NCBI GenBank assembly: GCA_021737785.1
Contig: JAIPDI010000037.1
Coordinates: forward strand, 1 to 53,850
Reading direction: 5' to 3'
Source of the DNA: Deltaproteobacteria bacterium
GTDB lineage: Bacteria; Desulfobacterota; DSM-4660; Desulfatiglandales; Desulfatiglandaceae
Length of the DNA: 53,850 bases
The position numbers were made by a program, and so were the translations under genes. Numbering within the stretch: position 1 is the first letter of the stretch; each line of letters opens with the position of its first letter. Positions 10,432-48,383 of this stretch are shown in pieces. The notes beneath the pieces were generated by a model, which was given only the letters and a program-made list of their open reading frames with translations, did not search any database and had not been told where the DNA came from.

Positions 10432-10612
10432 TTGCTTTGCAATAGCCTCCGCAGGTGAGGTATTTTTTTGCATTTTCTATGTTATTTTTTTCACAAAGAA
10501 ATGTTTAAGACATTTTTTTCGTATAAGGGTTTACTCAGTATTTATGGTTGGCGGCAGTGTTTCAGACGGCCGCAGATTATTAACAACAGCATGGAAGAAG
10601 GAGGTAAAGACA

Positions 10613-12196
10613 TTGGCCTTTGAAATTCCCAAACAGCCCTATTCCGGAAAGATAGGGAATACCACGGTCGGAACCGGCAGTGGCGCTGTGACGTTGGGGG
10701 GTCAGACTTCGTATCCATTTCATGTCTTCGAGGGAGATATGCCGAATCCCCCGAAAATCGCGATGGAGATCTGGGATTACGACCCTTCCAATGAATGGCC
10801 TGCAGCGGCCGTTGCCCCGTTTAAGGATGTTATTTCTTCACCTGAGACCTGGGCCAAAAAATGTGTTGACGAGTACGGGGCCGACATTATCGTGCTTCAA
10901 CTTAAGAGCACCGACCCCAATGGAATGGACAGGAGTCCGGACGAGGCGGCCGAGGTCACCAAGAAGGTTGCAGACGCGGTGGATGTGCCGGTTATCCTGT
11001 GGGGTACGGCAAACAACCAGAAGGATGAAGAGGTCCTCAAAAAGATTTCCCAGGTATGCGAAGGCAAGAATCTGGGCCTGGGTCCGGTGGAAGAAGCCAA
11101 CCACAAAGGGGTGGGTGCAAGCGCCCTGGGGTACGGTCATACGGTCATTGCGTCCTCGCCCATCGACGTGAACCTCGCAAAACAGCTCAACATCCTTCTG
11201 GGTAATTTAGGGGTTCAGTCAAACAAGATTGTCATCGACCCCACAACCGGCGGTCTTGGGTACGGTCTGGAATATTCCTACTCGGTCATGGAGCGCATCA
11301 TGATGGCCGCACTGACCCAGGAAGACGATAAACTTCAGATTCCCATGATCACCAACCTGGGCAACGAGATCTGGAAGTGCAAAGAAGCGGGCCTTCCCCT
11401 TGGAGAGATGCCCACATTGGGCGACCCGGAAAAAAGGGCCATCCTCATGGAATGTGTGGGGGCGGTATGCTATCTGCTTGCCGGGTCTTCGGTGGTGATA
11501 TTGAGGCATCCCGAATCGGTTCGTATGGTCCGTTCGTTTATCGAGCTTTTGAGCAATGGGGGAAGTGCCGCCGACGTTCAGGAGATCTCAAAACTATTGC
11601 CGCTGGAGGAGGCGGATCTGATCTCATTGTCTCCTGAGCCCAACCTGGATTTCGGTCCTGCAGAGACTGCTCCCAAACCTGAGAAGGCCCCGGCCAAACC
11701 GAAAACCGAGGCAAAGGCTGCCCCTGCGCCTCCCAAGAAAGAAGAGAAGGCTGTAGCCGAACCAGAGGCCAAAAAGGCCGAGCCAAAGCCCGATAAAGCG
11801 GTAGCGCCAAAGGCGGAACCCGACGCAAAGGCCACGGCTGAAGCTGAAGCCAAGGCCAAGGCAGAGGCCGAAGAAAAGGCCAAGGCAGACGCCGAAGCCA
11901 AGGCCAAAGCCGAGGCGGAAGCGAAAGACAAGGCAGAGGCAGAGGCCAAGGCCAAGGCCGATGCAGAGGCCAAGACCAAGGCGGAAGCGGAAGAGAAGGC
12001 CAAGGCAGACGCCAAGGCCAAGGAAACAGAGGACCTGAAGGCCCTGAGATACAAGCGGGCCCAGGAAAGAGAAAAACACGAGGCCGGGCAAAAGGCTCGC
12101 GAAGGAGAGGCCGTTGCCAAAACTCCGGCAGGCCAGCAGATGGACATGGTTGAGAAACTGATTGCAGCCATCAATCGTATTCATAAACGGATTTAG
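10613..12196 (+). CDS. acsD: CODH/ACS corrinoid iron-sulfur protein small subunit (AcsD/CdhD) with long Ala/Lys/Glu tail
   Basis: The small subunit of the corrinoid iron-sulfur protein, a TIM-barrel partner of AcsC that carries the methyl group from methyl-tetrahydrofolate to acetyl-CoA synthase. The first roughly 335 residues match the family (for example IPKQPYSGKIGNTTVGTG at the start and IDPTTGGLGYGLEY in the barrel). The remaining 190 residues are odd: a Pro/Lys/Ala linker followed by a low-complexity AEAKAKAEAE-type array resembling a TolA-like long helix, ending in a short amphipathic segment. I chose the TTG at 10613 because GGAGG lies 8 nt upstream; the ATG at 10544 would add an unrelated 23-residue leader. 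It is the first gene of the acsD-acsA-acsB-acsC-acsE run. Confidence 0.92.
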   Translation: MAFEIPKQPYSGKIGNTTVGTGSGAVTLGGQTSYPFHVFEGDMPNPPKIAMEIWDYDPSNEWPAAAVAPFKDVISSPETWAKKCVDEYGADIIVLQLKSTDPNGMDRSPDEAAEVTKKVADAVDVPVILWGTANNQKDEEVLKKISQVCEGKNLGLGPVEEANHKGVGASALGYGHTVIASSPIDVNLAKQLNILLGNLGVQSNKIVIDPTTGGLGYGLEYSYSVMERIMMAALTQEDDKLQIPMITNLGNEIWKCKEAGLPLGEMPTLGDPEKRAILMECVGAVCYLLAGSSVVILRHPESVRMVRSFIELLSNGGSAADVQEISKLLPLEEADLISLSPEPNLDFGPAETAPKPEKAPAKPKTEAKAAPAPPKKEEKAVAEPEAKKAEPKPDKAVAPKAEPDAKATAEAEAKAKAEAEEKAKADAEAKAKAEAEAKDKAEAEAKAKADAEAKTKAEAEEKAKADAKAKETEDLKALRYKRAQEREKHEAGQKAREGEAVAKTPAGQQMDMVEKLIAAINRIHKRI

Positions 12197-12234: not shown

Positions 12235-14280
12235 ATGGCGACAGAAGAAGTCAAGAGTAAGGTTGTTTCAGCAAAGAAAAAGGCTGAGCCGCCCAGGCCG
12301 GAAGATCTGGCCCTGGATGTGGCGAGCCAGGAGATGATCGTGAGGTCGAGGGAGATGGAGATCGAGACCATCTTCGATCGGGCTCAGAGCATGAAGCCCT
12401 GTAATATCGGGGCCCAGGGAACGTGCTGTAAGAACTGCGCCCAGGGGCCTTGCAGGCTTCCCCTGCCCAAGGGGGGCATAGAGGGGAAGGATACCCGCAA
12501 GGGTCTGTGCGGGGCCACGCCCGAGACTATCGCTGCCAGGAATTTCGCCCGGATGGTTGCCGGCGGCGCCGCGGCCCATTCAGACCATGGCAGGGGGGTT
12601 GCAGAGACCTTTCTGGCGGCCGCTCGAAAGGAAACCGACGATTATCACATTAAAGATACCAAGAAGCTCCTTGAGATCGCCCCTGATTTCGGCGTAGAGA
12701 TCACCGTAGAGGGGGAGAACGGCGAAATCCTGGACCGGGATATTGACGAGATCGCCGTGGAAGTGGGTGAAGTCGCCCTGGGCCAGTGGGGACAGCAGAC
12801 CGGCGAGGTCTGCACCATCAAGCGGGCCCCGGAAAAACGGTATGAACTCTGGAAAAAGCTGGGCGTCACCCCGAGAGGCATCGACCGGGAGATCGTGGAG
12901 ATCATGCACCGGACCCATATCGGCGTGGACCAGCATTATGAGAATCTGGTGGAACAGTGCAGCCGGGCAGCCATCGCCGACGGCTGGGGCGGCTCCATGA
13001 TCGCCACCGACCTTCAGGACGTCCTCTTCGGCTGCCCCTATCCCCTGAAGAGTCAGGCCAATCTGGGGGTGATGAAAAAAGATCATGTCAACATCGTCAT
13101 CCACGGCCACGAGCCCCTCTTGAGCGAGATGATCGTACAGGCCTCCGAGCTCCCCGAGATGTTGGAACTGGCCAAGAGCAAAGGGGCCAAAGGGATCCAG
13201 TTGAGCGGCATCTGCTGCACGGCCAATGAGCTTTTGATGAGACACGGGATCCCACTCTGCGGTGATTTCCTGCAGCAGGAGCTGGCCATTATCACCGGCG
13301 CGGTAGACGCCATGGTGGTGGATGTACAGTGCATCATGGAGAATGTCGCCAGTGTGGCCCAGTGTTTCCACACAAAGGTGATTACCACCAACCCGCGTGC
13401 CAGGATCGCATCAGGCGAAACCATTCATATAGAATTTGATGAACACACCGCCTTTGAAGATGCCAAGAAGATCGTCAGGGCAGGCATCGAAAACTTCCCC
13501 AACAGGGAAAAGGAGGTCATGATTCCGAATGACAGGCATGACCTGGTCGCCGGATTCAGCTACGAGGCGATCAACTACCATCTGGGCGGGACCTTCCGGG
13601 GATCCTATACGCCCTTAAATGACAACATCATCAACGGCCGCATACGGGGTATCGGCGGAGTGGTTGGGTGAAACAACGCTCGAACCTCGCTGGATGCGGG
13701 GCATATCGCCGTTGTAAAAGAATTGATCAAGCATGATGTGATTGTACTTACCACCGGGTGTAACGCCATTGCCTGCGCCAAGGCCGGACTCCTGACGCCC
13801 GAATCGGCGGCTGTTTACTGCGGTCCCGGGCTGGCCGAGGTCTGTGAGACGGTCGGCATTCCGCCTGTACTGCACATGGGTTCATGCGTGGATAACAGCC
13901 GGATCCTCATGGCGGCGACCGAAGTGGTCAAGGCCGGGGGCCTGGGCGAGGATATCAGCGACCTTCCGGCCGCCGGATCCGCGCCCGAATGGATGAGTGA
14001 AAAGGCCATCAGCATCGGCCATTATTTTGTGACCGCAGGCGTGTATACCGTTTTCGGCGTGACCATGCCCGTGAGCGGCTCGCCGGTCTTCGAAGACTAC
14101 CTGTATAACAAACTGGAGGGCCTCTATGGCGGCATGTGGGATCTGGAGGTGGATCCGATCAAGCACGCCCACAAGATGATCGCCCATATTGACAAGAAGC
14201 GGAAGGCCCTCGGCATCGACAAGGCGCGTGAGAGGGTCCTCATGGATATGGCTGACCGGCAGAAGCTGGAGGCGGCGTAA
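12235..14280 (+). CDS. acsA: CO dehydrogenase catalytic subunit (AcsA/CooS) with selenocysteine at a C-cluster ligand position
   Basis: Interconverts CO and CO2 at a nickel-iron-sulfur C-cluster and feeds CO to acetyl-CoA synthase. Read through the TGA at 13669-13671 the product is 681 residues, normal for the family; both halves are in one frame. D- and B-cluster cysteines are Cys56, 64, 65, 68, 73 and 92. C-cluster ligands can be placed by spacing against Carboxydothermus CODH-II: His290 (HGHEP), Cys328 (GICCTANE), Cys366 (DVQC), residue 479, Cys509 (TTGC) and Cys551 (HMGSC). Residue 479 is the UGA, in GVVG-U-NNA, exactly 113 residues after Cys366 and 30 before Cys509, as expected for Cys446. 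A hairpin suited to a bacterial SECIS begins 13 nt after the UGA. A strong AGGAGG RBS precedes the ATG. A sequencing error (TGC to TGA) is the main alternative. Confidence 0.9.
13685..13701 (+). promoter_or_regulatory. Putative SECIS hairpin in acsA
   Basis: A six-base-pair stem CCTCGC/GCGGGG (one G-U pair) with a UGGAU apical loop begins 13 nt after the UGA at 13669. Position, size and a GG in the loop fit bacterial SECIS elements recognised by SelB. Confidence 0.6.
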
Positions 14281-14317: not shown

Positions 14318-16534
14318 ATGTCAAAATTAGTAGCGTTTGCGGCCATTCAAGGCGCTTACAATATTGTCTCAAAGGCGGAAGGGACCTACAAGCGGGCCCT
14401 GGAAACCTACGGCGGAAGCCAGAAGCTGGAGTTTCCCAATACCGCCTATTTTTTACCCATTATATATTCTCTGACCGGGATCAAGGTGACGGATCTGGAT
14501 TCGGCGAAAAAACCCCTGGAATTTGCACGGAGCCTGTTGCCGCCCCATGTGAAAAAGGACTGCCACCTTCCCTACCTGGGACCCCTCCTGGATGCAGGGA
14601 TGGGGGCGATTTTTGCCGAGGAGATCTCAGAGGCCATCCGGTATGTGGAAGACCCGGATTTTTATCAACCCGAGGTGGAAGACCCGGATGTGGACAACGG
14701 CAAGATCTGGCTGGGTGCGGCCGATGACGCCATCATGAGAAAACGGGGCGTGGAGTTCGTGGACGGCACGGCCCCGGGGTTTGCCGCCATCGTGGGCGCG
14801 GCCCCCGATTCGGCCACCGCCAAGAAGATGGCCGAGGAGTATCAGCTCAAGACCATCTATGTTTTTATGGCCGCCAATCAGAACAACACCACCTTCACGG
14901 AGCAGCTCCTGGAGCAGAAGGTCCAGATCGGCTGGAACACCCGTCTGGTCCCCTTTGGGCCGGATATCTCCGCTGCGGTGTTCGCCCTCGGTTTTGCCAA
15001 CCGGGCGGGCATGTCCTTCGGCGGCATCCAGCCGGGAGACTATAAGAAGATGCTGGCCTATCAGAAAAACCGCATCTTTGCGTTCGTCAACGCTCTGGGC
15101 GACGTCAATGCCGAGTGGGCGGCCAATGCGGCCGGATGCGTGAACTGGGGATTTCCCACCATCGCGGATACGGATATTCCGGAGATCCTGCCTACAGGCG
15201 TCTGCACCTATGAACACGTGGTGGCCAACGTGGGTCACGATGAAATGCCCCAGAGATCCATCGAGATTCGCGGGCTCAAGGTGAGCATCACGCAGATCGA
15301 CATCCCCTTGGCCTACGGCCCGGCCTTCGAAGGCGAGCGGGTCCGAAAAGACGACCTCTATATGGAGATGGGCGGCGGCAAGACCCAGTGCACCGAGTTG
15401 TGCAAGATGGCGGATATGAACGCCATAGAAGACGGTAAGACAGAGGTCATCGGTCCTGACGTCAAGGACGTGAAAAAGGGAGACAGGCTCCCACTGGGGA
15501 TTTTCGTTCAGGTGGCCGGCCGGGAGATGCAGGCCGACTTCGAGCCGATCCTGGAACGGCAGATCCACCACCTCATCAACTATGCCCAGGGCATTATGCA
15601 CATCGGGCAGCGGGATATCTCCTGGATCCGGGTAGGTGAGCCGGCCATCGAGAAGGGATTTACCCTCAAGGATATCGGGACCATCCTTCACGCCAAGTTT
15701 CATCAGGACTTCGGGAGCATCCTGGATAAGGTCCAGGTGACCCTGTATACGAAGAAGGAAGACGTGGATAAGCTCACGAAGACCGCCAGGGCCGAATACA
15801 AGGCCAGGGATGAGCGGGTGGAGAGCATGACGGACGAGAGTGTGGAGACCTTTTATTCCTGCACCCTCTGCCAGTCCTTTGCCCCGAGCCATGTCTGCAT
15901 GGTGAGCCCGGAGCGGACCGGACTGTGCGGCGCCTACAACTGGATGGACTGCAAGGCCTCCTTTGAGATCAATCCCACAGGTCCCAACCAGCCCGTGAAA
16001 AAGGGCGAGGTCTTGGACCCGGTATTGGGGCAGTTCAAAGGGGTGAACGACTTCGTGTTCAAGGCCTCTCGGCAGACGGTCGACCACTACAACTTTTACA
16101 GCATTGTCCATGACCCCATGACCACCTGCGGCTGCTGTGAGTGCATTGCCGCGGTGCTTCCGGGGTGCAACGGGGTCATGACGGTTCACCGGGACTACAC
16201 CGGCGAGACCCCGTGCGGAATGAAATTTACCACCCTGGCCGGGGTCATGGGGGGGGGACAGTCCTCGCCCGGCTTCGTGGGTCATGGTAAATTCAATATC
16301 ACCCAGCGCAAGTTCATCGCAGGGGACGGCGGGCTCCTTCGCATGGTCTGGATGCCCAAATCGCTCAAAGAGGAGATCAAGGAGCGGCTCATGAAGCGGG
16401 GAGAAGAGCTTGGGGTCCCCGATTTATATGACAGAATCGCGGATGAGACCGTGGGCATTGACGAGGAATCGGTCATGGCCTTTCTCAAGGAAAAGGACCA
16501 TCCGGCCTTGAAGATGGACCCGATCGTAGGGTAA
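14318..16534 (+). CDS. acsB: Acetyl-CoA synthase catalytic subunit (AcsB, A-cluster)
   Basis: Condenses CO, a corrinoid-bound methyl group and CoA into acetyl-CoA. The 738-residue length is close to Moorella AcsB, including the N-terminal domain that contacts CODH and that archaeal CdhC lacks. The A-cluster cysteines sit where expected: a C-x2-C pair at 515 and 518, then HVC and GLC, for the Fe4S4 part, and the Cys604-Gly605-Cys606 motif that binds the distal nickel; these are offset by 9 from Moorella Cys506 and Cys595. A GGGAGG RBS precedes the ATG, 38 nt after acsA. The C-terminal GVMGGGQSSPGFVGHG block is also family-typical. No truncation is seen. Confidence 0.97.
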   Translation: MSKLVAFAAIQGAYNIVSKAEGTYKRALETYGGSQKLEFPNTAYFLPIIYSLTGIKVTDLDSAKKPLEFARSLLPPHVKKDCHLPYLGPLLDAGMGAIFAEEISEAIRYVEDPDFYQPEVEDPDVDNGKIWLGAADDAIMRKRGVEFVDGTAPGFAAIVGAAPDSATAKKMAEEYQLKTIYVFMAANQNNTTFTEQLLEQKVQIGWNTRLVPFGPDISAAVFALGFANRAGMSFGGIQPGDYKKMLAYQKNRIFAFVNALGDVNAEWAANAAGCVNWGFPTIADTDIPEILPTGVCTYEHVVANVGHDEMPQRSIEIRGLKVSITQIDIPLAYGPAFEGERVRKDDLYMEMGGGKTQCTELCKMADMNAIEDGKTEVIGPDVKDVKKGDRLPLGIFVQVAGREMQADFEPILERQIHHLINYAQGIMHIGQRDISWIRVGEPAIEKGFTLKDIGTILHAKFHQDFGSILDKVQVTLYTKKEDVDKLTKTARAEYKARDERVESMTDESVETFYSCTLCQSFAPSHVCMVSPERTGLCGAYNWMDCKASFEINPTGPNQPVKKGEVLDPVLGQFKGVNDFVFKASRQTVDHYNFYSIVHDPMTTCGCCECIAAVLPGCNGVMTVHRDYTGETPCGMKFTTLAGVMGGGQSSPGFVGHGKFNITQRKFIAGDGGLLRMVWMPKSLKEEIKERLMKRGEELGVPDLYDRIADETVGIDEESVMAFLKEKDHPALKMDPIVG

Positions 16535-16643
16535 GGGATAAGCGCCAATTCATTTTCCGGACGCGGGTAGACGCAGACCCTGCAGATTAAGTCATCTGTG
16601 GGTGTCTGCGGCCTCCTGCGTCCCCATAGATGAGGAGTACATT

Positions 16644-17990
16644 ATGGGATTAACTGGAATTCAGATATTTAAGCTGTTGCCTAAAACGAACTGCGGGGAG
16701 TGCGGCGTACCCACATGCCTCGCCTTTGCCATGAATCTGGCCGCGGGCAAGGCGGAACTGGACAGCTGCCCGTATGTGTCGGATGAGGCCCGGGCCCAGT
16801 TGGCAGAGGCCTCTGCCCCGCCGATCCGGCCGGTTGCCATCGGGGCCGGCACAAGGGCGTTCAAGACGGGCGGCGAGACCGTCATGTTCAGGCATGAAAA
16901 AACCTTTTACAATCCGACCGGACTCGGGGCCATGGTCGCCTCGGATATGGACCCGGCCGCCCTGGATACCAAACTGAAGGAGTGGAACGCCCTTCAGTTT
17001 GAGAGGGTGGGCCTCAATCTGAGGCCCGAGCTGGTAGCCCTGAAGGATGCGGGCGATGCGGCGGCGTTTGCGGCTGCTGCCAAGAAGATCGCCACGGAGA
17101 GCGAATTCAATTTGGTGCTCATGACAGAGAACGTTGACGCCATGAAGGCTGCGGTGGAGGCCTGCGCATTCAAAAAGCCGCTTCTGTACGCAGCGACCGC
17201 GGCCAATGCCGAAGACATGGGGAACCTGGCAAAAGAAAAGGGACTCCCCCTGGCCGTTAAGGCGGACAATATGGATGATTTGATCGCCCTCAGCGATAAG
17301 CTGACGGGGATGGGGCTGAAGGATCTGGTGCTCGATTCAGGGGCCAGGGAGATCAAACCGCTCCTGCAGGATCAGGTGTCCATCCGAAGGGCCGCACTCA
17401 AGGCCGGCAACAAGTCCCTCGGGTTTCCCACCATCACCTTCCCCTGTGAAATGGCGAGCAACCTGGACATGGAGACCCTCATTGCGTCCATGCTGATCGC
17501 CAAATACGGAGGGATCGCCATCCTCTCGGATTTCAAGGGTGGAAGTCTCTTTTCCCTCCTCCTGGAGCGGTTGAATATCTACACAGACCCGCAACGTCCC
17601 ATGACCGTTACAGAGGGGATCTACGAGATCGGTTCGCCGGACGAGAATTCTCCGGTCCTGGTGACCACCAACTTCTCTCTGACCTACTTTATCGTCAGCG
17701 GTGAAATAGAAGGGAGCCGGGTGCCGAGCTGGCTGCTGATCCTGGATACGGAAGGCCTATCGGTCATGACCGCATGGGCCGCAGGAAAATTCTCCGGAGA
17801 CGTGGTGGGCATGTTTGTGAAGAAGTGCGGCATCGCCGACAAGGTGAAGCACCGGAAGATCATCATCCCCGGCTACGCCGCCTCCATCAGCGGCGAGATG
17901 GAAGAGGAACTGCCTGACTGGGAAATTCTAATCGGGCCCAGGGACGCCTCTCTGATACCCAAATACCTCAAGGACATGGCAGCAAAGTAG
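16644..17990 (+). CDS. acsC: Corrinoid iron-sulfur protein large subunit (AcsC/CdhE)
   Basis: The large subunit of the corrinoid iron-sulfur protein; binds the corrinoid that shuttles methyl groups from AcsE to AcsB and an Fe4S4 cluster that reactivates it. The cluster motif is at the very N-terminus: Cys17-x2-Cys20-x4-Cys25-x16-Cys42, the pattern known for this family. A TIM-barrel middle and a corrinoid-binding C-terminal domain (VTTNFSLTYF, PSWLLILDTEGLSVMTAWAAGKF) follow. I place the start at the ATG at 16644 (MGLTGIQIFK) since GAGGAG lies 6 nt upstream; an upstream in-frame start at 16602 would add 14 unrelated residues. It gives 448 residues, normal for the family. Confidence 0.95.
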   Translation: MGLTGIQIFKLLPKTNCGECGVPTCLAFAMNLAAGKAELDSCPYVSDEARAQLAEASAPPIRPVAIGAGTRAFKTGGETVMFRHEKTFYNPTGLGAMVASDMDPAALDTKLKEWNALQFERVGLNLRPELVALKDAGDAAAFAAAAKKIATESEFNLVLMTENVDAMKAAVEACAFKKPLLYAATAANAEDMGNLAKEKGLPLAVKADNMDDLIALSDKLTGMGLKDLVLDSGAREIKPLLQDQVSIRRAALKAGNKSLGFPTITFPCEMASNLDMETLIASMLIAKYGGIAILSDFKGGSLFSLLLERLNIYTDPQRPMTVTEGIYEIGSPDENSPVLVTTNFSLTYFIVSGEIEGSRVPSWLLILDTEGLSVMTAWAAGKFSGDVVGMFVKKCGIADKVKHRKIIIPGYAASISGEMEEELPDWEILIGPRDASLIPKYLKDMAAK

Positions 17991-18103
17991 AATGAAAACC
18001 AGGAGTTGGAACTTGCCGTGCCGGGGCCAGCAAGCCCGGCCGGCCCAATAGACAACATGAGACCTTGATCTCGGAACAAACCAGAAGAAGGGGGAGTGTG
18101 CCC

Positions 18104-18988
18104 ATGTTATTGATTGGTGAAAATTTAAATGTCATCAGCACGGTGATCGGCAAGGCCTTTAAGGAAAAAAATCCGGGCCCCATTGCCGAAGAGGCCAAGC
18201 GCCAGAAGGAAAAGGGGATGGACTGGATCGACATCAACCTGGGCCCCGCCAGAAAGGGCGGACCCGAGTTGATGGAGTTCGTGGTCAAGACGGTGCAGGA
18301 AGCCATCGGGGATTCGCCCCCTCTCTGCCTCGATACCTCCAACGTCGAGGCCATGGAAGCGGGACTTTCGGTGCACCAGGGGAAGGCCATTATTAACTCC
18401 ATCATGTGCCGGCCTGAACGATATGAAAAGATGATCCCTTTAGCAGTCAAGTACAAGGCCAACATGATCGCCCTCATGTGGGGACCGGAAGGCCTCCCCA
18501 GGGACGAAAACGAGCGGGGCGCCCTGGCTGCCGAGCTGATATACGCCGCCAATGAGGCCGGCGTGCCCAATGAAGACATCTTTGTGGACGGGATTGTGAC
18601 CCCGGTGAATATCCAGCAGCCGCAGGCACTCAGCCTGCTCGCCTTTCAAGAGATGCTTCCGGATATGTTCCCCGGCGTCAAGTCCACCTGCGGACTCTCC
18701 AATATCTCCAACGGACCGCCGGATCATCTCAGGCCGATCCTCAATCAGACCTATATGGTCATGCTGGAGAGGAAGGGGATGTATTCCTGTATCGCCGATG
18801 CCTACGATGATCAGCTGGTGGCCATTGCCCGGGGAAAGCGACCCGACGTGGTGGAGATTATTCACAAGGTCATGGACGGCGAAGCCATCGATATGGGTGC
18901 CCTTACAAAGGAGTTGCAGGGCTATGTCAAGACGGCCAAGGTGATCTTAGGCGAGTCGCTATATTCGGACTCATGGCTTGAGCTGTAA
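18104..18988 (+). CDS. acsE: Methyltetrahydrofolate:corrinoid/iron-sulfur protein methyltransferase (AcsE)
   Basis: Transfers the methyl group from methyl-tetrahydrofolate to the cobalt of the corrinoid iron-sulfur protein, linking the methyl branch to acetyl-CoA synthesis. The 294-residue product is a pterin-binding TIM barrel: LLIGENLNVIS at the N-terminus, WIDINLGPARKGG in the pterin site region, LCLDTSN and STCGLSNISNGPP later, all as in AcsE/MetH-like methyltransferases. The ATG at 18104 follows a GGGGAG; the frame is open further upstream but without family similarity. It is the last acs gene before the strong terminator at 19011. Confidence 0.95.
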   Translation: MLLIGENLNVISTVIGKAFKEKNPGPIAEEAKRQKEKGMDWIDINLGPARKGGPELMEFVVKTVQEAIGDSPPLCLDTSNVEAMEAGLSVHQGKAIINSIMCRPERYEKMIPLAVKYKANMIALMWGPEGLPRDENERGALAAELIYAANEAGVPNEDIFVDGIVTPVNIQQPQALSLLAFQEMLPDMFPGVKSTCGLSNISNGPPDHLRPILNQTYMVMLERKGMYSCIADAYDDQLVAIARGKRPDVVEIIHKVMDGEAIDMGALTKELQGYVKTAKVILGESLYSDSWLEL

Positions 18989-22833: not shown

Positions 22834-22980
22834 GCCGAAGATGTTCCCCGTGCCGGCCATTCCCCCCCAGGGATTCGGGGGTGAGGCAAAGACGACGCCT
22901 CTGGGACGGCACGATGAACGGAAATTTCGTATGGACAGGGCCGCAGACGGCAACGGGCGCGGTTCGACCGGGAGGGAGAC

Positions 22981-25417: not shown

Positions 25418-28400
25418 ATGGCAGAAAAAACAGTCGGGTCGGTTATGGTTATCGGCGGTGGGATTGCAGGGATGCAGTCTGCTCTGGATCTCGCTGATTC
25501 GGGATATTTTGTTCATCTTGTGGAGAAATCGCCCGCCATCGGCGGTGTCATGAGCGAACTGGATAAGACGTTTCCCACCAATGACTGCGCCATGTGAATT
25601 ATCTCTCCTAAACTGGTCGAGGTCGGCCGGCATCTCAACATCAATCTGATAACCTGCGCAGAAGTGGAACAGGTCGAGGGCAGCGAAGGAAATTTCGAAG
25701 TCACCCTCCACAAGACTCCCCGTTATATCGATGAAGGCAAGTGCACGGCATGCGGCGATTGCGCCGCGGTATGTCCGGTGTCCCTCCCCAGTGAATACGA
25801 TCAGGGACTGATTGGCCGAAAAGCCACCTTCAAGAAATACGCCCAGGCCATCCCCGGGGCCTTTGCCATTCAGAAGACAGATAAGGCCCCCTGCCGTCTG
25901 GCCTGCCCTGCCGGACTCAATGTGCAGGGATATGTTCAGATGGTGAAACAGGGCAAGTATGAAGCGGCCCTGAAGATCATCATGGAGGACCTTCCCCTCC
26001 CCGGCGTATTGGGACGGATCTGTCCCCACGGCTGCGAGGATGCCTGCCGCCGGTGCGAGGTGGATGAGCCGGTGGCCATCCGCGATCTCAAGAGGCTGGC
26101 CGCTGATCAGTTTGATCCCAGGGATGTAAAGATCGAATGCCTCCCCCGCCGGGACGAAAAGGTGGCCATTATCGGTTCGGGCCCTGCAGGGCTTTCGGCC
26201 GCCTATCACCTGGCGCGGAAAGGGATTTCATCCACGATCTTCGAGGCCCTTTCCGAGCCCGGAGGGATGCTGCGGGTGGGGATCCCGGCCCATCGTCTGC
26301 CCCGGGAGGTCCTGGACAGGGAGATCGAGCTGATCCGAAACCTGGGGGTCGAGATCAAGACCGATACGCCCCTGGGACCGGATCTGGGCATCGAGGATCT
26401 CATGAATACCGGGTACCAGGCGGTGTACCTGGCCCTTGGGGCACATAAAGGGATCGAACTGGGGATCCCCGGAGAAAAGGCCCAGGGCGTTCGCCAGGGG
26501 GTTGACTTCCTTAGGGAAGTGAACCTGAATGGAAAGGCCCCGGTGGGAAAACGGGTGGCCATTATCGGGGGCGGGAATGTGGCCATTGACGTGTCCCGAT
26601 GCGCGGTCCGATTGGGCGCCGAAGAAGTGATGATCCTCTACCGCCGTACCCGGGATGAAATGCCTGCCTGGGAAGAGGAGATTCAGGCGGCAGAGGCAGA
26701 GGGCGTCAGCGTCGCCTATCTGTGTGCGCCTCAGGAGGTTCTGACCACAGACGGGCGGGCAACCGGGCTGCGATGCATTCGAATGGAACTGAGGGAACCC
26801 GATTCCTCCGGCAGGAGACGCCCGATCCCGATTCCCGGGAGCGAGTACGATATAGAGATCGACCAGGTGATCCCCGCCATCGGTCAGACGCCCGACCTGT
26901 CGGCCCTGGAAGATGCCGCGGATCTGGCCTTTTCCAGATGGGGCACCGCTGAAGTGGACCCGGTGACCTATGAAACCGGCCGCAAGGGGGTCTTTGCCGG
27001 CGGCGATCTCCAGACCGGACCCTGGGTGGCTATCGGCGCCATTGCGGCGGGACGCGAGGCCGCGGAATCCATCGTCAGATATTTGGACGGCCGCGACATG
27101 GCAGAGGGCCGCGCCCCCCTGATCAATGAAAACCCGGCCTACCGCCCGATCCCCGAAGATGCACCGCGGCGCTCAAGGGCCCATATGCCGGAGCTTCCCC
27201 TCGGGGAAAGGACCGGCAACTTCAAAGAGGTGGAATTAGGCTATCAGGAGGAAGCGGGAAAGGAAGAGGCGGGCCGCTGTCTGAACTGCGGTTACTGTTG
27301 CGAATGTCTCCAGTGTGTGGAGGCATGCAAGGCCGGCGCAGTCACCATGGAGACCCATGCACAGCAGCCGGAGACCCTGTCCATCAATGTGGGATCCGTG
27401 ATCATGGCCCCGGGATTTCAGGCCTTTGACCCGGGCCGGTTTGACACCTATCATTACGCCGCCAGTCCCAATGTGGTCACCTCCATGGAATTTGAACGGA
27501 TCCTGAGCGCCACAGGCCCGTACCAGGGTCACCTGCAGAGACCCTCCGATGGGCGGGAACCCCGGAAGATCGCCTGGCTCCAGTGTGTGGGATCGCGGGA
27601 CGTCAACCGATGCGATCACTCCTATTGTTCTTCTGTCTGCTGCATGTATGCCATCAAAGAGGCGGTCATTGCCAAAGAGCACTCGGAACACGATCTGGAT
27701 GCCGCCATATTCTTCATGGACATGAGGACCTATGGGAAGGATTTTGAGAAGTATTATGAGCGTGCCAGGGACGAACAGGGGGTCAGGTTCATCCGTTCCA
27801 GGATCCATTCCATCTCCGAACAGGCCGATACCGGAGACCTGATCCTGGAATATGCGGACGAGGGCGGCCGGATCCATAGGGAGACCTTTGATCTGGTGGT
27901 TCTGTCCGTGGGACTGGAGACGCCGAGGCAGCTGGTTGAAACGGCCCATCGTCTGGGCGTGGAACTGGACGGGGACGATTTTGTGGAGACAGGGACCTTC
28001 AGCCCGGTGGAGACATCCAGAAAAGGGGTATATATATGCGGGGCCTTTCAGGAACCCAAAGACATCCCCTACTCCGTCATGGAGGCCAGTGCAGCGGCCT
28101 GCGATGCCAAGGCGGCCCTCTCTTCTGCCCGGGGAACCCTGGTCAGGGAAAGGACCTACCCCGATGAGAGGGATGTGTCTGCCGAAGCGCCGCGAATCGG
28201 TGTCTTCGTCTGCAACTGCGGCACCAATATCGGAGGGATCGTGGATGTGCCGGCAGTTGCGGAATATGCCCGCACCCTTCCGGGGGTTTTCTATGTGGAG
28301 GAAAACCTCTTCACCTGCTCTCAGGACACGCAGGACAAGATGAAGGAGGCCATCCAGCGGGAGGGGCTCAACCGGGTGGTTGTGGCGGCCTGTACCCCGA

Positions 28401-30247: not shown

Positions 30248-31783
30248 ATGGTGAACAAAGACATTCTCGTTATCGGAGGGGGCATCGCCGGGATACAGGC
30301 GTCACTGGATCTCGCAGAAATGGGGATCCATGTGTATCTGGTGGAAAGCCTTCCCAGTATCGGCGGGAAGATGGCCCAATTGGACAAGACCTTTCCCACC
30401 AACGACTGTGCCATCTGAATTCTTTCGCCCAAGATGCTGGATGTCGGTCGGCATCCCAATATTGATCTGATGGCCTACTCCGAAGTGGAGGAGGTGGCCG
30501 GCGATAGCGGCAATTTCAGGGCGACGGTCAGGAGAAAGGCCCGGTATGTGGAGGAAGACCGGTGCACCGGGTGCGGCGCCTGCAAGGAAAAGTGTCCGAC
30601 CGTGCTCCCTGATGCGTTCAATGAGGGCCTGGGGACGCGAAAGGCCATATACAGCTGGTTTGCCCAGGGCATCCCCTCGACCCATACCATCGATCCCGAT
30701 CATTGCCGGCAGTTGAACGGCAAGAAGTGCGGTATCTGTCAGAAAGTCTGCCAGGCCGAGGCCGTCAATTTCGATCAGAAGGACCGGATGGTGACGCTGG
30801 ATGTGGGGGCCATTATCGTGGCCTCCGGATACAAGGTCTTCGATCCCTCCCGGATCCCTGAATACCAGTATTGCCAGCTTCCCAATGTCATTACGGCCAT
30901 CGAGCTCGAAAGACTCCTGAGCGCCAGCGGCCCCACGTCCGGACATCTGCACCGCCCGTCGGACCTCCTTTTGGAGGCGGAGATCGAAGCCCTTGAAAAG
31001 GATGTGAAGAAATCGGAAAAGGCCCTTGGTAAATTTGAGCAGAAATATGATCAGGCATCGGCCGCCTTTTACGACGCCTATCAGAAGGGCGAATACGAGG
31101 GGGATGCGGATCGCGGAAAATGGGCGGAAAAATACGCGTCCCACCTGGCCCTTCTGGCGCCGCTTGAGGCGCTGAAAAAGGAGGCGGAAGGCGTTGATGT
31201 GGCCAAGCGACTGGCCTTTATTCAATGTGTGGGGTCCAGGGATTTCCGGTTTTATCCGTTCTGTTCGGGTTTCTGCTGCATGCATTCCATCAAGGAGGCC
31301 ATTATCGCCAACGAGCATGAAAAGGAGACCACCTCCGTCATCTTCGGAATGGACATCCGGGCCGTGGGAAAGGGTTTTGAGGAATACAAAATCCGGGGAG
31401 GCAACCAGTCGGGAATCAGCTATGTTCGCGGCCGGGTGGCGGAGATTACAGAAGGACCTTACCGGAATCCGGTGGTAACCTATGAGGATACCCGGGAGAG
31501 AAAGGTCATTTCCCAGGATTTCGATCTGGTGATTTTAGCCACCGCCTGCGCCCCCAGCGAGGGGGTGGACCGCCTGGCAGAGATACTGGGGATCGAACTG
31601 AACCGGTTCGGGTTCTTCAAGACCGGGACGTCACAGCCTGTGGATACGACCCGGCCGGGCGTTTTCACCTGTGGTTGCGCCCACGGACCGATGGATATTC
31701 CGGAATCGGTGGCCCAGGCCAGCGCGGCCGCGGCCCGGGCCGCGCAGATCGTGTCAGCGGCCAACCTGCGGAAGGCGTCTTGA
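30248..31783 (+). CDS. hdrA: Selenocysteine HdrA flavoprotein with helical insert (operon A)
   Basis: First gene of the hdrA-hdrA'-mvhD-fdhB-fdhA run. Read through the TGA at 30416 (Sec57, [16 protein letters not shown]) it is 511 residues. It contains the FAD motif [16 protein letters not shown], the ferredoxin motif [20 protein letters not shown], and the HdrA block CVGSRD...[13 protein letters not shown]. Between GHLHRPSD and [10 protein letters not shown] there is an insert of about 80 residues (240-320) rich in Glu, Lys and Ala, probably a helical hairpin; the paralogues have only a short linker there. It corresponds to the first half of the hdrA at 41868; the second half is encoded separately by the next gene. 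ATG at 30248 follows a GGAGAGA. Confidence 0.9.
30434..30454 (+). promoter_or_regulatory. Putative SECIS hairpin in hdrA (30248)
   Basis: ATGCTG pairs with CGGCAT (one G-U pair) around a 9-nt loop, starting 15 nt after the UGA at 30416. It is less regular than those of the other two hdrA genes but has the same position. Confidence 0.5.
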
Positions 31784-33616: not shown

Positions 33617-34066
33617 ATGACCGAAAACAGTTTTGAGCCCAAGATCATATGCTTTTTGTGCACCTGGTGAGCATACGCTGCTGCTGACCTGGCTGGGGTC
33701 AGTCGACTGCAGTATCCCACGAACATCCGGACCGTCCGGGTGATGTGTTCTGCGAGCGTTTCGCCGCACCATATCCTGAGGGCGTTTCAACAGGGGGTGG
33801 ACGGCGTTTTTGTGGGCGGGTGACACCTGGGTGAATGCCATTACCTGTATGGTAATTACGCAACAGATAAGCGGATAAGATTTCTCCGAAAGCTTCTGGG
33901 GTTCAGCGGGATCGAGGAAGACCGGTTGCGCGCCCGATGGATCTCTTCGGCCGAGGGGCCTGAATTCGCTGAAGAGATACGGGATTTTGTCGAAACCCTG
34001 AGGGGGCTGGGCCCTTCACCCGTAAAAGAGGTGGAATCCCGCTTGAAAACGGCCCTGGCCGCTTAA
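33617..34066 (+). CDS. mvhD: MvhD-like electron-transfer subunit with two selenocysteines
   Basis: A 149-residue protein of the MvhD/HdrA-associated family that carries a [2Fe-2S] cluster and links HdrA to a hydrogenase or dehydrogenase. Two in-frame TGA codons must be read: 33668 (Sec18, CTW-U-AYAAADLAGVSR) and 33821 (Sec69, FVGG-U-HLGECHYLYGNY). The paralogue at 44949 has Cys at the first site and Sec at the second, which supports both readings. Conserved ARWISSAE near residue 105 is also typical. The ATG follows an AGAGGA with 7-nt spacing. Each Sec codon has a hairpin downstream. Conventional gene finders would miss or split it, since no frame of useful length remains. Confidence 0.88.
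33684..33702 (+). promoter_or_regulatory. SECIS hairpin for first UGA of mvhD (33617)
   Basis: A perfect six-base-pair stem CTGACC/GGTCAG with a 7-nt UGGCUGG loop begins 13 nt after the UGA at 33668. Confidence 0.6.
33840..33856 (+). promoter_or_regulatory. Putative SECIS hairpin for second UGA of mvhD (33617)
   Basis: ATTACC/GGTAAT with a UGUAU loop begins 16 nt after the UGA at 33821. It overlaps the codons of the conserved HYLYGN motif, so conservation in the paralogue does not by itself prove RNA function. Confidence 0.45.
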
Positions 34067-35085: not shown

Positions 35086-37122
35086 ATGGACTACCGGACT
35101 GTGCTGACCACGTGCACCTATTGCGGCTGCGGCTGTAATTTTTACCTGGAGGTGCTTGACGGTCAGGTCATCGATACGATCCCCTGCAAGACCCATCCCG
35201 TGAACGAGGGAAAACTCTGCATCAAGGGATGGAACGTTCATGAGTTTATACAAAGTCCCCGGCGGCTGACACGGCCGCTCCTCCGCAAGGACGGGGTCCT
35301 CAAAGAAGTGGACTGGGACGAGGCCATCGATTATACGGCTTCCAGGCTCAAGGCGATCAAGGAGGCCGACGGCGCCGACAGCATCGCCTTTCTCACCTCC
35401 GCAAAGGTAACCAATGAGGAGAATTATCTCCTCCAGAAGTTCGCACGGGCCGGGGTGGGCACCAACAGCGTGGATCACTGCGCGCGTCTCTGACACTCCT
35501 CCACGGTGGCAGGTCTTGCCGCCGCGTTCGGGAGTGGGGCCATGACCAATTCAATATCTGAAATTGAAGACGCGGACTGTGTCTTCATCATCGGATCCAA
35601 TACCACTTCTTCTCATCCCCTGGTGGCCACACGCATCTTCCGGGCCAAGAAAAAAGGGGCCAGGATTATCGTTGCCGATCCCCGGACGATCCAGCTATCC
35701 TCGTTGGCGGATATTACGGTTCGCCATAAGCTGGGGACCGACGTGGCCCTGTTAAACGGCATCATGCATGTCATCCTCGAAAAGGGATGGCACAATCTCT
35801 CCTTTATTCAGGAGCGGACCGAGGAATTTGAGGCGTTTTCAAAGGTCATTAAAGACTACCCGCCGGAAAAGGCCGCCGAGATTACAGGAGTGGCCGCCGA
35901 AGACATCCTCCGGATGGCCGAACTCTATGCCAAGGCCGAAACCGCCTCCATTGTCTACTGCATGGGGATCACCCAGCACACCACCGGAGTGGACAATGTC
36001 AAGACCCTGGCCAATCTGGCCATGCTCACGGGAAATGTGGGGAGGGAATCCACCGGCGTCAACCCGCTCCGCGGGCAGAACAATGTTCAGGGGGCCTGTG
36101 ACATGGGAGGGCTCCCCAATGTTTACCCCGGGTATCAGCCGGTAAATATGGTGGATATTCAGAAGAAATTCGAAAGCGCCTGGAATGCCGCACTGTCGGA
36201 CAAGGTGGGTCGGACGGTCCCTCAAATGCTCACAGGGCTGGCAGACGGATCGGTCAAGGCATTGTATGTCATGGGTGAAAATCCGATACAGAGCGATCCC
36301 GATACCGAGCATGTCAAAAAGGCCCTGGAGGCTGCTGAACTCCTGATCGTCCAGGACATCTTTCTCACCCCCACTGCCGAACTGGCCCATGTGGTCCTCC
36401 CCGGGACCTCTTTTGCGGAAAAAGACGGCACGTTCAGCAATACCGAGAGGCGCGTGATGCGGGTCCGGCAGGCCGTCGATCCGGTGGGGGACTCCCGTCC
36501 CGATTGGCGGATCATCCAGGAGGTTTCCAACCGATTCGGCTATCCCATGAACTATGCCTCGCCCGAAGCCGTGATGCAGGAGATTGCCTCTCTGACGCCG
36601 TCGTACGGCGGGATCACCTATGATCGCCTGGAGGGTGAGGGGCTTCAATGGCCCTGCCCACATGCGGATCATCCCGGAACCCGATATCTGCATGAGGGGG
36701 TGTTCTCAAGGGGAAAGGGACTGTTTCATCCGATTGAATACAGGCCCCCGGCAGAAATCGTGGACGAGGAATTTCCGCTCTGGCTTTCCACCGGGAGGGT
36801 CTTTGCCCATTACCACACCGCCACCATGACCCGGAATTCCCCCTCCCTGGATGCCGAGATCCGGGAAGGATTTCTGGAGGTCCACCCCGAAGACGCGGAC
36901 AAATTAGGGGTTTTGCAGGGAGACAGGGTCATTATAACCTCCCGGCGGGGGGCCATTACGGCCCGGACCGCCATTACCGACAGGGTCCAGCAGGGACTCG
37001 TATTTATGCCCTTCCATTTTATTGAAAGCAACGTAAATGTCCTGACCAATCCTGCCCATGACCCGATCGCCCAGATCCCGGAGTTCAAGGTCTGTGCGGT
37101 CAAGCTTGAGAAGGCTGCCTGA
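35086..37122 (+). CDS. fdhA: Formate dehydrogenase catalytic subunit with selenocysteine (operon A)
   Basis: Molybdenum- or tungsten-bis-pterin formate dehydrogenase, interconverting formate and CO2. Read through the TGA at 35491 it is 678 residues. The N-terminal [4Fe-4S] motif is CTYCGCGCNFYLEV...CIKGW, and Sec136 sits in HCARL-U-HSSTVAGL with the neighbouring catalytic His, the formate dehydrogenase signature. GINPLRGQNNVQG-like (GVNPLRGQNNVQGACDMG) and the C-terminal cofactor-binding domain are intact. The length fits a cytoplasmic enzyme without a Tat signal. An AGAGAGGAAGG stretch lies upstream of the ATG, 61 bp after the fdhB-like gene. It completes operon A, likely an HdrA-coupled, electron-bifurcating or confurcating formate dehydrogenase that may supply the methyl branch of the Wood-Ljungdahl pathway. 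Confidence 0.95.
35505..35523 (+). promoter_or_regulatory. SECIS hairpin in fdhA (35086)
   Basis: GGTGGCA/TGCCGCC, seven base pairs with a GGUCU loop, 11 nt after the UGA. The loop matches the well-studied E. coli fdhF SECIS loop (AGGUCU). Confidence 0.9.
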
Positions 37123-41867: not shown

Positions 41868-44800
41868 ATGAGCGATAAGATGGTTAACCAGGAACTGCAG
41901 GGGGCCGTAATGGTTGTCGGCGGCGGTATTGCCGGCATGCAGGCGGCCCTGGACATGGCAAACTCGGGTTTTTATGTATATATGGTTGAAAAATCGCCGG
42001 GGATCGGCGGGGTCATGGCCCAGCTGGACAAGACCTTTCCCACCAACGACTGTTCCATGTGAATCCTGGCCCCGAAACTGGTCGAGGTCGGCCGGCACGT
42101 CAACATCGAACTTCTGACATTAAGTGAAGTAAAAGAGATCTCCGGAAAAGAGGGCGATTTTACCGTCATTGTGGTGCGTCATCCGCGATACGTGGATATG
42201 GACAAGTGCATCGCCTGCGGGACCTGCGCCGAGAAGTGTCCCAAGAAGGTGGATGATCTCTATAACGAGGGGTTGATGAAGCGGAAGGCGATTTACGTCC
42301 CCTATTCACAGACCGTTCCCCTCAAATACGCCATAGACAGGGATAACTGTATCTATTTCCAGAAAGGGAAATGCAGGGCCTGTGAAAAGTACTGCCCCGC
42401 GGGGGCCATCAACTTTGATGAACAGGAGACAGAGGTTGCCCTCCACGTGGGCTCCCTCATTCTGGCCCCCGGATTCAAGTCCTTTGATCCCGGCCGATAC
42501 GATACCTATTCCTACTCGGCCCTCCCGAACGTGGTGACCTCTCTCGAATTCGAACGGATCCTTTCAGCGACAGGGCCTTTCATGGGGCACCTCTCCAGGC
42601 CATCCGACAAGAAGGAACCCGCAAAGATCGCATGGTTTCAGTGCATCGGCTCCCGGGACGTCAACCGGTGCGACAACGGCTACTGCTCATCCGTATGCTG
42701 CATGTACGCCATCAAGCAGACGGTCATTGCGAGGGAACACAGCAAAGTCCCTCTGGATTGCGCCGTGTTTTTCATGGATATGCGGACCCATGGAAAGGAT
42801 TTTGACCGGTATTACGAGCATGCCCAAAAGGACGGCGTACGGTTTATCCGATCGCGGGTCCATTCGGTGGATTCCATTACGGGTTCTGATGATATCCAGG
42901 TGATCTACGCGGACGAGTCCGGCCGTCTGCAAAGGGAGTCCTTCAACATGGTGGTCCTCTCCACCGGTCTGGAGGTGGACGAGGCGGTGGCGGGCCTCTC
43001 GAATCGGCTGGGGATCACCTTGGATTCTTATCATTTTGTCGCGTCCGACAGCTTTCACCCGGTGGCGACCTCGGTGCCCGGGATCTATGCGTGCGGGGCC
43101 TTCACCGGACCCAAGGATATTCCCCAATCGGTCATGGAGGCCAGCGCGGCCGCGTGTGCGGCAACCGAGCGGCTGGCCCCTGCCCGCAACACCCGAACCA
43201 AGGAGGTGGTGATCCCCCCGGAGCGGGATGTGCGGCGGGAGCCCCCCAGGATCGGGGTATTTGTGTGCAACTGCGGCATCAATATCGGGGGCGTGGTCAG
43301 GGTCCCGGAGGTGGCGGAATTTGCCAGGGGCCTCCCCCACGTGGTCTATGTGGAGGAAAACCTCTTTACCTGCTCCCAGGATACCCAGGACAAGATGACG
43401 GAGGTCATCAAGGCCCAGGGATTGAACCGGGTGGTGGTAGCGGCCTGCACGCCCCGAACCCATGAAGGGCTGTTCCAGGAGACCCTCATGAATGCCGGGC
43501 TCAACAAATATCTCTTCGAGATGGCCAACATCAGGAACCACGACTCGTGGGTGCATGCCGACGACCCGGATGCAGCCACGCAAAAGGCCAAAGATCTCGT
43601 GCGCATGGCCGTGGCCAAGACCGGTCTCTTGACCCCGCTTCAGCAGACGGCCCTTCCCATCAGTCAGTCGGCCCTTGTGGTGGGCGGCGGGGTTGCCGGC
43701 ATGACGGCCGCCCTGGCCCTGGCCCGCCAGGGATACCCGGTGCATCTGGTTGAAAAATCAGAGACCCTTGGGGGCAATGCCTTGATGCTGAACCAGGCCC
43801 ACCAGGGGGAAGCGGTGGCGGACCTGATCCAGGAACTGGTGAGCGAGATCCGATCGGAGAAGCGGATTACCCTGCACCAGAATGCCGCCATTACCCAGGT
43901 AAACGGGTTTATCGGCAATTTCAAGACCGAGGTGACCGAAGGGTCTTCCAAAGAGACCATCGATCACGGGGTGGCGATCCTGGCCACGGGGGCAGCGGAG
44001 TACAAGCCCAGGGAGTACCTCTATGGGGAGCATGGGGCGGTGGTGACCCACCAGGAGATGGACGGACTGTTGAGGAGCGACGATCCCAGGGTGGCACAGG
44101 CCGGGACGGTGGTCTTTATCCAGTGCGTGGGATCGAGGGATGACGAGCACCCCTACTGTTCCAAGGTCTGCTGCACCCATACCGTGGAAAGCGCCCTGGA
44201 ACTGAAAAAGCGGAATCCCGATGTCATGATCGTTGTCCTTTACCGGGACATGCGGACCTACGGAAAACGGGAGGATCTCTACCGGGCCGCCCGGGCCGCA
44301 GGGGTGATGTTTGTCCGGTATTCAAAAAATGAAAAGCCTCTGGTCAGTGCGGACGGCGACGGCGTGAGGGTTGAATTCAGAGACCCGATACTGGATCGCA
44401 CACTGGCGGTCCGGGCCGATCTTCTCTGTCTGGCCACGGCCATCGTATCGCACAGGGATCTGGGTCTGGCCCAGTTCTTCAAGGTCCCCATGGACGGGGA
44501 CGGGTGGTTCCTGGAGGCCCATCAGAAGCTGAGACCGGTGGATTTCGCCAATGACGGGGTGTTTCTCTGCGGCATGGCCCACTACCCAAAGCCCATCGAC
44601 GAGAGCATCGCACAGGCCCAGGCCGCTGCCTCCAGGGCCTTGACGGTCCTTTCCATGGATACCATCCAGGTGGGAGGCATTGTCTCGATCATCGATCCCG
44701 AGCTCTGCTCCGGGTGTCTGGCATGCATGCAGGTCTGCCCCTATAACGCCATCTCGCTGAACGAGGAAAGAAATGTGGCAGAGGTGAACGAGGCCCTGTG

Positions 44801-44948: not shown

Positions 44949-45395
44949 GTGAAAGAAGACGGATTTGAGCCTAAGATCATCGCGTTTATGTGTAACTGGT
45001 GCACCTACGGGGCGGCAGACCTGGCCGGCGTCAGCCGGCTGTCTTACCCGCCCAATATCCGGCCCCTGCGCGTCATGTGCTCGGCCACGGTATCCCCGCA
45101 CCATATCCTGAGGGCCCTGCAGGACGGGGCCGACGGGGTCCTGGTGGGGGGCTGACACATCGGCGACTGCCATTACCTGTATGGTAATTACATGACCGTG
45201 AAGCGGATGACATTCCTTCAGGAATTGTTGGGACTGCTGGGCCTTCAGGAAAGGGTCCATCTGGCATGGATCTCATCGGCCGAGGCCCAGAGATTCGTGG
45301 AGGTGGTCACGACGTTTACCGAAAAAATTAAATCACTGGGGCCGAATCCGCTGTTGGCGTATTCCGACGCGCCGCGGGCTGTTAATTGGGCGTGA
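44949..45395 (+). CDS. mvhD: MvhD-like electron-transfer subunit with one selenocysteine (operon B)
   Basis: A 148-residue paralogue of the protein at 33617. It starts at GTG 44949 after an AAAAGGAGAG. Cys18 (CNWCTYGAADLAGVSR) replaces the Sec of the paralogue, whereas the TGA at 45153 is Sec69 (LVGG-U-HIGDCHYLYGNY). The remainder, including AWISSAEAQRF, follows the family. It passes electrons between HdrA and the formate dehydrogenase module by analogy with MvhD in methanogens. Without Sec read-through it would end after 68 residues, losing conserved sequence, so the UGA is very unlikely to be a stop. Confidence 0.92.
45172..45188 (+). promoter_or_regulatory. Putative SECIS hairpin in mvhD (44949)
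   Basis: ATTACC/GGTAAT with a UGUAU loop, 16 nt after the UGA at 45153, the same as in the paralogue at 33840. Confidence 0.45.
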
Positions 45396-46337: not shown

Positions 46338-48383
46338 ATGGAGTGCAAATTGGTGCCGTCGGTCTGTTCCTACTGTGGAACCGGCTGCGGCGTTTTATTT
46401 GAGGTGATCAACAACCGGATTGTCGGCACATTGCCCATGAAGACCCACCCGGTCAACGAGGGGAAACTGTGCATCAAGGGGTGGAATCTTCACGAACATG
46501 TCAACAGCATCCTGCGGCTCAAGCAGCCCCTGGTCAAGACCTTCGGCCGGTTCATCAAGACGGACTGGGACGAGGCCATAAAGCTCACTGCGGATCGTTT
46601 TCGAGAGATTATCGACAAATACGGACCGGACAGCATCGGGGTCCTGGTCTCGGCCAAAATAACCAACGAAGAAAACTACCTGGCCCAGAAGCTTGCCCGC
46701 GCAGTCATCGGGACCAATAACGTGGATCACTGCGCGAGGCTCTGACACGCCTCCACGGTGGCAGGTCTTGCCGCCGCGTTCGGGAGTGGGGCCATGACCA
46801 ACTCCGTTGCCGACATAGAAGATGCCGGATGTATCTTTATCATCGGTTCCAATACCACGGCATGCCACCCCCTGATCGCCAGGCGGGTCATGCGGGCCAA
46901 GGAAAAGGGGGCCAAACTCATTGTGGCCGATCCGAGGCACATCCAGCTCTCGCGCTTTGCCGATGTGGCCGTTACCCACCGGCTGGGGAGCGATGTGGCC
47001 CTCCTCAACGGAATGATGCACCTCATCATTAAAAACGGCTGGCACGCCAAAGAGTATATCGCCGCCCGAACCGAAGACTTTGATGCCCTTGAAAAGAAGG
47101 TCGGTGCGTTTACCCCTGAGAAGGTCCAGGCCATCACCGGGGTGGCGCCAAAGGACCTGGAGGAGATGGTGCGGCTGTACGCCACCCATTCGCCGGGGAG
47201 TCTCCTCTATGCCATGGGGATCACCCAGCACACCACCGGCGTGGACAATGTCAAGTCGTGCTGCAACCTGGCCATGCTCTGCGGATACGTGGGGGTGCGC
47301 GGGGGCGGCGTCAATCCCCTGAGGGGGCAGAACAATGTACAGGGGGCCTGCGACATGGGGGGCCTCCCCAATGTCATGACCGGGTATCAGCCGGTGGCGG
47401 ACGAGGGCGTGCGGGAAAAGTTCTCCAAGGCCTGGGGGGCGCCGCTCCCGGCCACCCCGGGGCTGACCATTACCGACATGGTCCCGGCCATGCTGGAGGG
47501 AAAGCTGAAGGGGCTGTATGTGATCGGCGAAAACCCCAAACTGAGCGATCCGGACTGGAATCACTTCAATCATGCCCTGAAAAAACTGGATTTCCTGGTG
47601 GTCCAGGAGCTTTTTCTGTCAGAGACGGCCCAGGTGGCGGATGTGGTCCTTGCCGGGGCCTCGGTGGCTGAAAAGGAAGGGACCTTTACCAATACCGAGC
47701 GCCGCTGTATGCGGATCAGAAAGGCGATCGAACCCATCGGCAACACGCTCCCCGACTGGGAAATCATCAGCAGGCTCTCAACGGCCATGGATTATGACAT
47801 GCGCTATGAGAACCCGGAAGAGATATTCAATGAAATGGCGGCATTGACGCCCAAGAGCTATGCGGGCATGACGTACCAGCGGATGGGGCTGGACGGGCTC
47901 CAGTGGCCCTGCCCGGATAAGGACCATCCGGGCACGCCCTATCTGCACAAGGACCAGTTTACCCGGGGCAAGGGAAAGTTCTTTGCCCTGGACTATAAGG
48001 ACCCTGCGGAACTCCCGGACGAGGAATACCCCTACTTTCTGACCACCGGCCGGATGTTCGCCCACTTCCATACCGGCACCATGACCCGGATTTCCCCGCA
48101 TCTGGATGCGGAACAGAAGACAGGGTATGTGGATATCAACCCGGAAGATGCAGAGACCCTGGATGTGAAGGACGGAGACGTGGTGGTCCTCTCCTCCCGC
48201 AGGGGCGATATCGAGGCCCCGGCCCGGCTCACCCGTTCGGTGGTGCCCGGCACCCTCTTCCTTCCCATTCACTTCGGCGAGGTGCCCACCAATGTCCTCA
48301 CCAATGCGGAGGCCGTGGATCCCCTGGCCAAGATCCCGGAGTTCAAGGTCGGCGCGGTGAGGGTGCAAAAGCTCGTCCTGTAA
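46338..48383 (+). CDS. fdhA: Formate dehydrogenase catalytic subunit with selenocysteine (operon B)
   Basis: A 681-residue paralogue of the 35086 enzyme, read through the TGA at 46743 (Sec136, HCARL-U-HASTVAGL, same residue number). The N-terminal [4Fe-4S] motif is CSYCGTGCGVLFEV...CIKGW; GVNPLRGQNNVQGACDMGG and the C-terminal pterin-binding domain are intact. AAAGGAG precedes the ATG. A perfect terminator follows at 48393, so this ends operon B. The 52 nt from 46750 to 46801 are identical to those at 35498-35549 in the other fdhA, much more than the flanks. Which copy works as CO2 reductase and which as formate oxidase cannot be read from sequence. Confidence 0.95.
46757..46775 (+). promoter_or_regulatory. 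SECIS hairpin in fdhA (46338)
   Basis: GGTGGCA/TGCCGCC with a GGUCU loop, 11 nt after the UGA at 46743; identical to that of the first fdhA and similar to the E. coli fdhF element. Confidence 0.9.

Follow-up and report, generated by a model that had tools for sequence, protein, structure and literature searches.

The window analysed here, by which the whole stretch of 53,850 nt is meant, carries an operon with the gene order AcsD-CODH-ACS-AcsC-AcsE-Mrp-MetV/HdrC-like, in which the gene for the catalytic subunit of carbon monoxide dehydrogenase (CODH) contains an in-frame UGA at codon 479 (Table 1). Clustering with acsB, acsC, acsD and acsE identifies the UGA-bearing gene as that of the CODH of the CODH/ACS complex (Wood-Ljungdahl pathway), and CODH is followed by ACS in every UGA locus examined. 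The AcsD-like protein possesses, C-terminal to its CdhD domain, a repetitive Lys/Ala/Glu-rich tail of approximately 170 residues (TolA-like low complexity), and two neighbouring genes adjoining the acs operon (21835-23961) each encode a protein whose C-terminal half contains a GcvH-like domain.

Table 1. Coordinates of the genes, codons and RNA element discussed in the text (positions within the window).
Feature	Position	Strand	Basis or remark
AcsD/CdhD (corrinoid protein delta subunit) with Lys/Ala/Glu-rich tail	10544..12196	+	
Ni-CODH catalytic subunit of acsA type (681 aa); single in-frame UGA, predicted to encode selenocysteine	12235..14280	+	TIGR01702, 619 bits, cut-off 478
His292, C-cluster Fe ligand by spacing with D. 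vulgaris His266	13108..13110	+	PMC6168284
Cys328, C-cluster ligand, D. vulgaris Cys302 equivalent	13216..13218	+	
Cys366, C-cluster ligand, CODH-II Cys333 equivalent	13330..13332	+	
UGA codon, predicted Sec479, at the CODH-II Cys446 C-cluster ligand position	13669..13671	+	alignment, spacing; ligand assignment PMC10502027
Bacterial SECIS-type hairpin, 17 nt	13685..13701	+	arms 13685-13690 and 13696-13701, loop UGGAU 13691-13695
Cys509, C-cluster ligand, CODH-II Cys476 equivalent	13759..13761	+	
Cys551, C-cluster Ni ligand, CODH-II Cys526 equivalent	13885..13887	+	alignment to solved CODHs
Acetyl-CoA synthase (AcsB)	14318..16534	+	
AcsC (gamma subunit)	16602..17990	+	
AcsE-like methyltetrahydrofolate:corrinoid methyltransferase	18065..18988	+	
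Sec UGA, HdrA-type gene	25595..25597	+	
Sec UGA, HdrA-type gene	30416..30418	+	
Sec UGA, VhuD/MvhD-type gene	33821..33823	+	
Sec UGA, formate dehydrogenase alpha (FdhA)	35491..35493	+	
Sec UGA, HdrA-type gene	42060..42062	+	
Sec UGA, VhuD/MvhD-type gene	45153..45155	+	motif same as at 33821; assigned by motif, copy not scanned itself
Sec UGA, formate dehydrogenase alpha (FdhA)	46743..46745	+	

The in-frame UGA claimed in a preliminary description of this DNA is present. It is the sole TGA within the CODH frame, which terminates with TAA and is otherwise open, and solved CODHs align with the product along the whole length. In phmmer alignments with these proteins (approximately 50% identity) residue 479 is matched with the invariant Cys in their VVGCNN motif, and the distances between residues 366, 479 and 509 (113 and 30) are identical to those between Cys333, Cys446 and Cys476 of CODH-II. 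The spacing claimed earlier is therefore confirmed and, together with the alignment, supports the proposal that the UGA replaces the Cys446-equivalent ligand of the C-cluster. To our knowledge, the C-cluster ligands of CODH are regarded as strictly conserved. In the window CODH the His/Cys set is complete but for this one position, and, given the TIGR01702 score and the operon, the protein can be considered a CODH with a variant ligand set, which strict motif filters such as those used in PMC11338639 would reject. PMC10502027 treats Cys446 of CODH-II as one of the C-cluster ligands and gives the persulfidated Cys347 as its superposed counterpart in the hybrid cluster protein, a member of the same superfamily which has an Fe-S-O cluster and no Sec; the position is thus already variable in the superfamily, with a thiolate, a persulfide and here, by inference, a selenolate.

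A search for homologues with UGA at this codon, which the preliminary description had proposed, was positive in 15 of the 85 genomes searched in the order, representing 15 species, a protein search and a pattern search each recovering the UGA-bearing CODH genes on its own. Orthologues of 81-88% identity have TGC or TGT instead, and in an alignment of 132 rows (some loci repeated) column 479 holds only Cys or UGA, while the remaining cluster ligands are Cys or His in all rows or in all but one. Among the UGA genes pN/pS is 0.101 upstream and 0.106 downstream of the UGA, and further stops are absent. Other TGA codons encountered in CODH relatives were rejected as comparable cases: that of a relative of 57% identity (G203) lies at query position 17, ahead of the conserved part, and in G029 and G052 residue 479 is Cys in the regions examined. 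Sec and Cys genes also differ at CODH residues 324, 342, 390, 600 and 601, outside the hairpin described below, which may reflect common ancestry or adjustment to selenium.

The hairpin of 6 bp reported earlier at 13 nt past the UGA (CCUCGC-UGGAU-GCGGGG) is indeed present but, as SECIS-like hairpins of this length occur downstream of approximately 16% of all codons in the window, it constitutes weak proof in a single sequence, and it is conservation across species that carries the argument. Of the 15 UGA genes, 14 retain all six pairs and one retains five; the Cys genes (n = 103) retain a mean of 1.9 pairs, with at least five in only one of them. In slide controls, pairing amounted to 98.7% at the hairpin and to at most 65% when shifted. 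Pair 5 is compensatory among UGA genes (G-C to U-A or the reverse), and since four of the six pairs are invariant the covariation rests mainly on this one pair. The loop is frozen as UGGAU/C, residue 486 is encoded by CTG in 15/15 UGA genes (His in 56/58 Cys genes) and residue 489 by GGG in 15/15. Codons 472-491 form the minimum of synonymous diversity of the gene, and elevated identity is limited to about 20 codons around the UGA, for which reason long-tract recombination was rejected as the source of the local conservation. Synonymous sites in the codons directly 5' of the UGA (GTG GTT GGG; window 13645-13671) are also nearly frozen in UGA genes. An Rfam search of the window with gathering thresholds gave no matches.

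Machinery for selenocysteine is present in the source genome, with selB on contig C12, selA on C18, selD (itself with a UGA) on C15 and a tRNA-Sec with anticodon UCA on C43. Fourteen of the 15 UGA genomes have selB above the cut-off, the exception being G001 (63% complete); within the compared set a selB match is absent from this genome, G023 and G081, all three only 63-83% complete. The seven other selenoprotein genes of the window noted in the preliminary description were recovered as three of HdrA type, two of VhuD/MvhD type and two for FdhA. A change of code to UGA = Trp was rejected, because UGA also terminates ordinary genes here, those for Mrp and the MetV/HdrC-like protein among them, and because CCA is the anticodon of the tRNA-Trp identified.

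These data meet all the tests of Sec coding that can be applied to sequences (UGA homologues, Cys homologues, a conserved SECIS hairpin, purifying selection downstream and a full set of Sec machinery), and we consider it highly probable (approximately 0.94) that UGA479 encodes selenocysteine in a full-length CODH of the CODH/ACS complex, with a selenolate ligating one C-cluster Fe, although protein and selenium data are lacking. SelB, tRNA-Sec and the hairpin would decode UGA479 as selenocysteine, decoding would yield the full-length enzyme, and the selenolate would take the place of the thiolate on one Fe of the NiFe4S4 cluster. The codon, its position and conservation, the hairpin, the selection and the machinery can be read from genomes; inference alone supports the insertion of Sec in vivo, the bonding of Se to Fe, the functional effect and CO/CO2 activity.

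An in-frame UGA could also be a leaky stop, giving mainly truncated CODH with some read-through by near-cognate tRNA. There is a precedent in acsA of C. autoethanogenum, where partial read-through was reported, with none in E. coli, for a UGA at codon 401 (deduced from an upstream CDS of 1,203 bp) for which the authors judged Sec unlikely (PMC4895105). The likeness ends at the presence of a UGA within a CODH gene: the C. autoethanogenum codon replaces Ser of its relatives at a non-ligand position in one species, whereas here an invariant Cys ligand is affected in 15, the UGA alternates with Cys only and is tied to the conserved hairpin, and selection has not weakened, although Trp inserted by a near-cognate tRNA in place of a cluster ligand should presumably inactivate the enzyme. 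We therefore give this explanation a very slim chance. Still less credence is due to a sequencing or assembly error, or to a pseudogene with a second CODH as backup, which the comparative data already refute: an identical codon in separate assemblies of 15 species makes error or a dead gene very unlikely, and the pN/pS of 0.10 is accompanied by neither frameshifts nor further stops.

The backup required by the latter explanation does exist, an intact Cys-type paralogue of 57% identity being present in the source genome (G000:C11). The preliminary description had held that a second intact cooS replacing the gene would refute its reading; an intact gene does exist, though not within the ACS operon, and the stretch examined around it yielded no Acs homologue. 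In the UGA-bearing genomes G025 and G037 (94-95% complete) no other CODH match was obtained. The same paralogue makes a selenium-sensing switch conceivable, one that does insert Sec but is maintained by selection because it stops CODH synthesis at low selenium, when the Cys paralogue would take over. Its locus (L032, 6983-10864) adjoins genes for PerR-like and LysR-like regulators, and the best match of the latter is a selenium-metabolism LysR family (213 bits, under the cut-off of 250), which is no more than suggestive. As the paralogue also accompanies ACS-linked CODHs of the Cys form (G019, G020 and G011) and is missing from the two UGA-bearing genomes above, such a switch appears unlikely.

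In a CODH tree computed without the Sec and hairpin columns, at least three Sec/Cys changes are required. The AU test rejects grouping the UGA genes in a single clade (p 0.014), and the history must therefore have included reversals, repeated gains or transfer. Two Cys orthologues, L041 (5657-7705) and L009 (1501-3540), keep the Leu486 of UGA genes with the hairpin decayed to 4/6 and 2/6 pairs, respectively, and are likely, by inference, to be Sec-to-Cys revertants.

Selenolate ligands of active-site metals, with Cys homologues in existence, are known from [NiFeSe] hydrogenases and Sec-containing formate dehydrogenases, but those bind Ni or Mo/W, whereas the Sec of CODH would bind an Fe of NiFe4S4. 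Sec-containing HdrA/VhuD proteins, whose genes lie in the same window, also have Sec among Fe-S cluster ligands, but serve electron transfer or heterodisulfide chemistry and not a Ni-Fe-S catalytic cluster. With the Ni-CODHs of bacterial CODH/ACS (AcsA; TIGR01702) the window protein shares sequence, operon and all B-, D- and C-cluster residues except Sec for Cys at the Cys446 position. The CODH catalytic subunit is absent from the 119 prokaryotic selenoprotein families of a 2026 review, which include formate dehydrogenases, hydrogenases, HdrA, HgcA and a nitrogenase subunit (PMC13188914). A full-text literature search found no report of Sec in any CODH, though subscription literature was covered incompletely and an earlier mention cannot be excluded.

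CODHs are among the fastest and most O2-sensitive CO2-reducing catalysts. The effect of selenium is, in the absence of measurements, most likely a more reducible cluster that can recover from oxidation, or faster Wood-Ljungdahl turnover; judging by selenium chemistry and by proposals made for [NiFeSe] hydrogenases, easier recovery from oxidation would be the likeliest benefit, with a change in redox potential or rate as the alternative. That this lineage has a Se-Fe ligated C-cluster changed in its redox potential, in its resilience to O2 or sulfide or in its bias towards CO2 reduction, with several Sec/Cys toggles, seems to us slightly better supported than not. If this is true, the toggles would provide natural selenium and sulfur CODH pairs for comparison, and S-ligated orthologues of 85-88% identity would make it possible to test directly how the nature of the ligand tunes the catalyst. 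CODH would then join the selenoproteome as a key carbon-fixing enzyme of sulfate-reducer-type sediment bacteria, and the formate dehydrogenases, the HdrA/VhuD-type genes and the CODH of this window would all be selenium-dependent.
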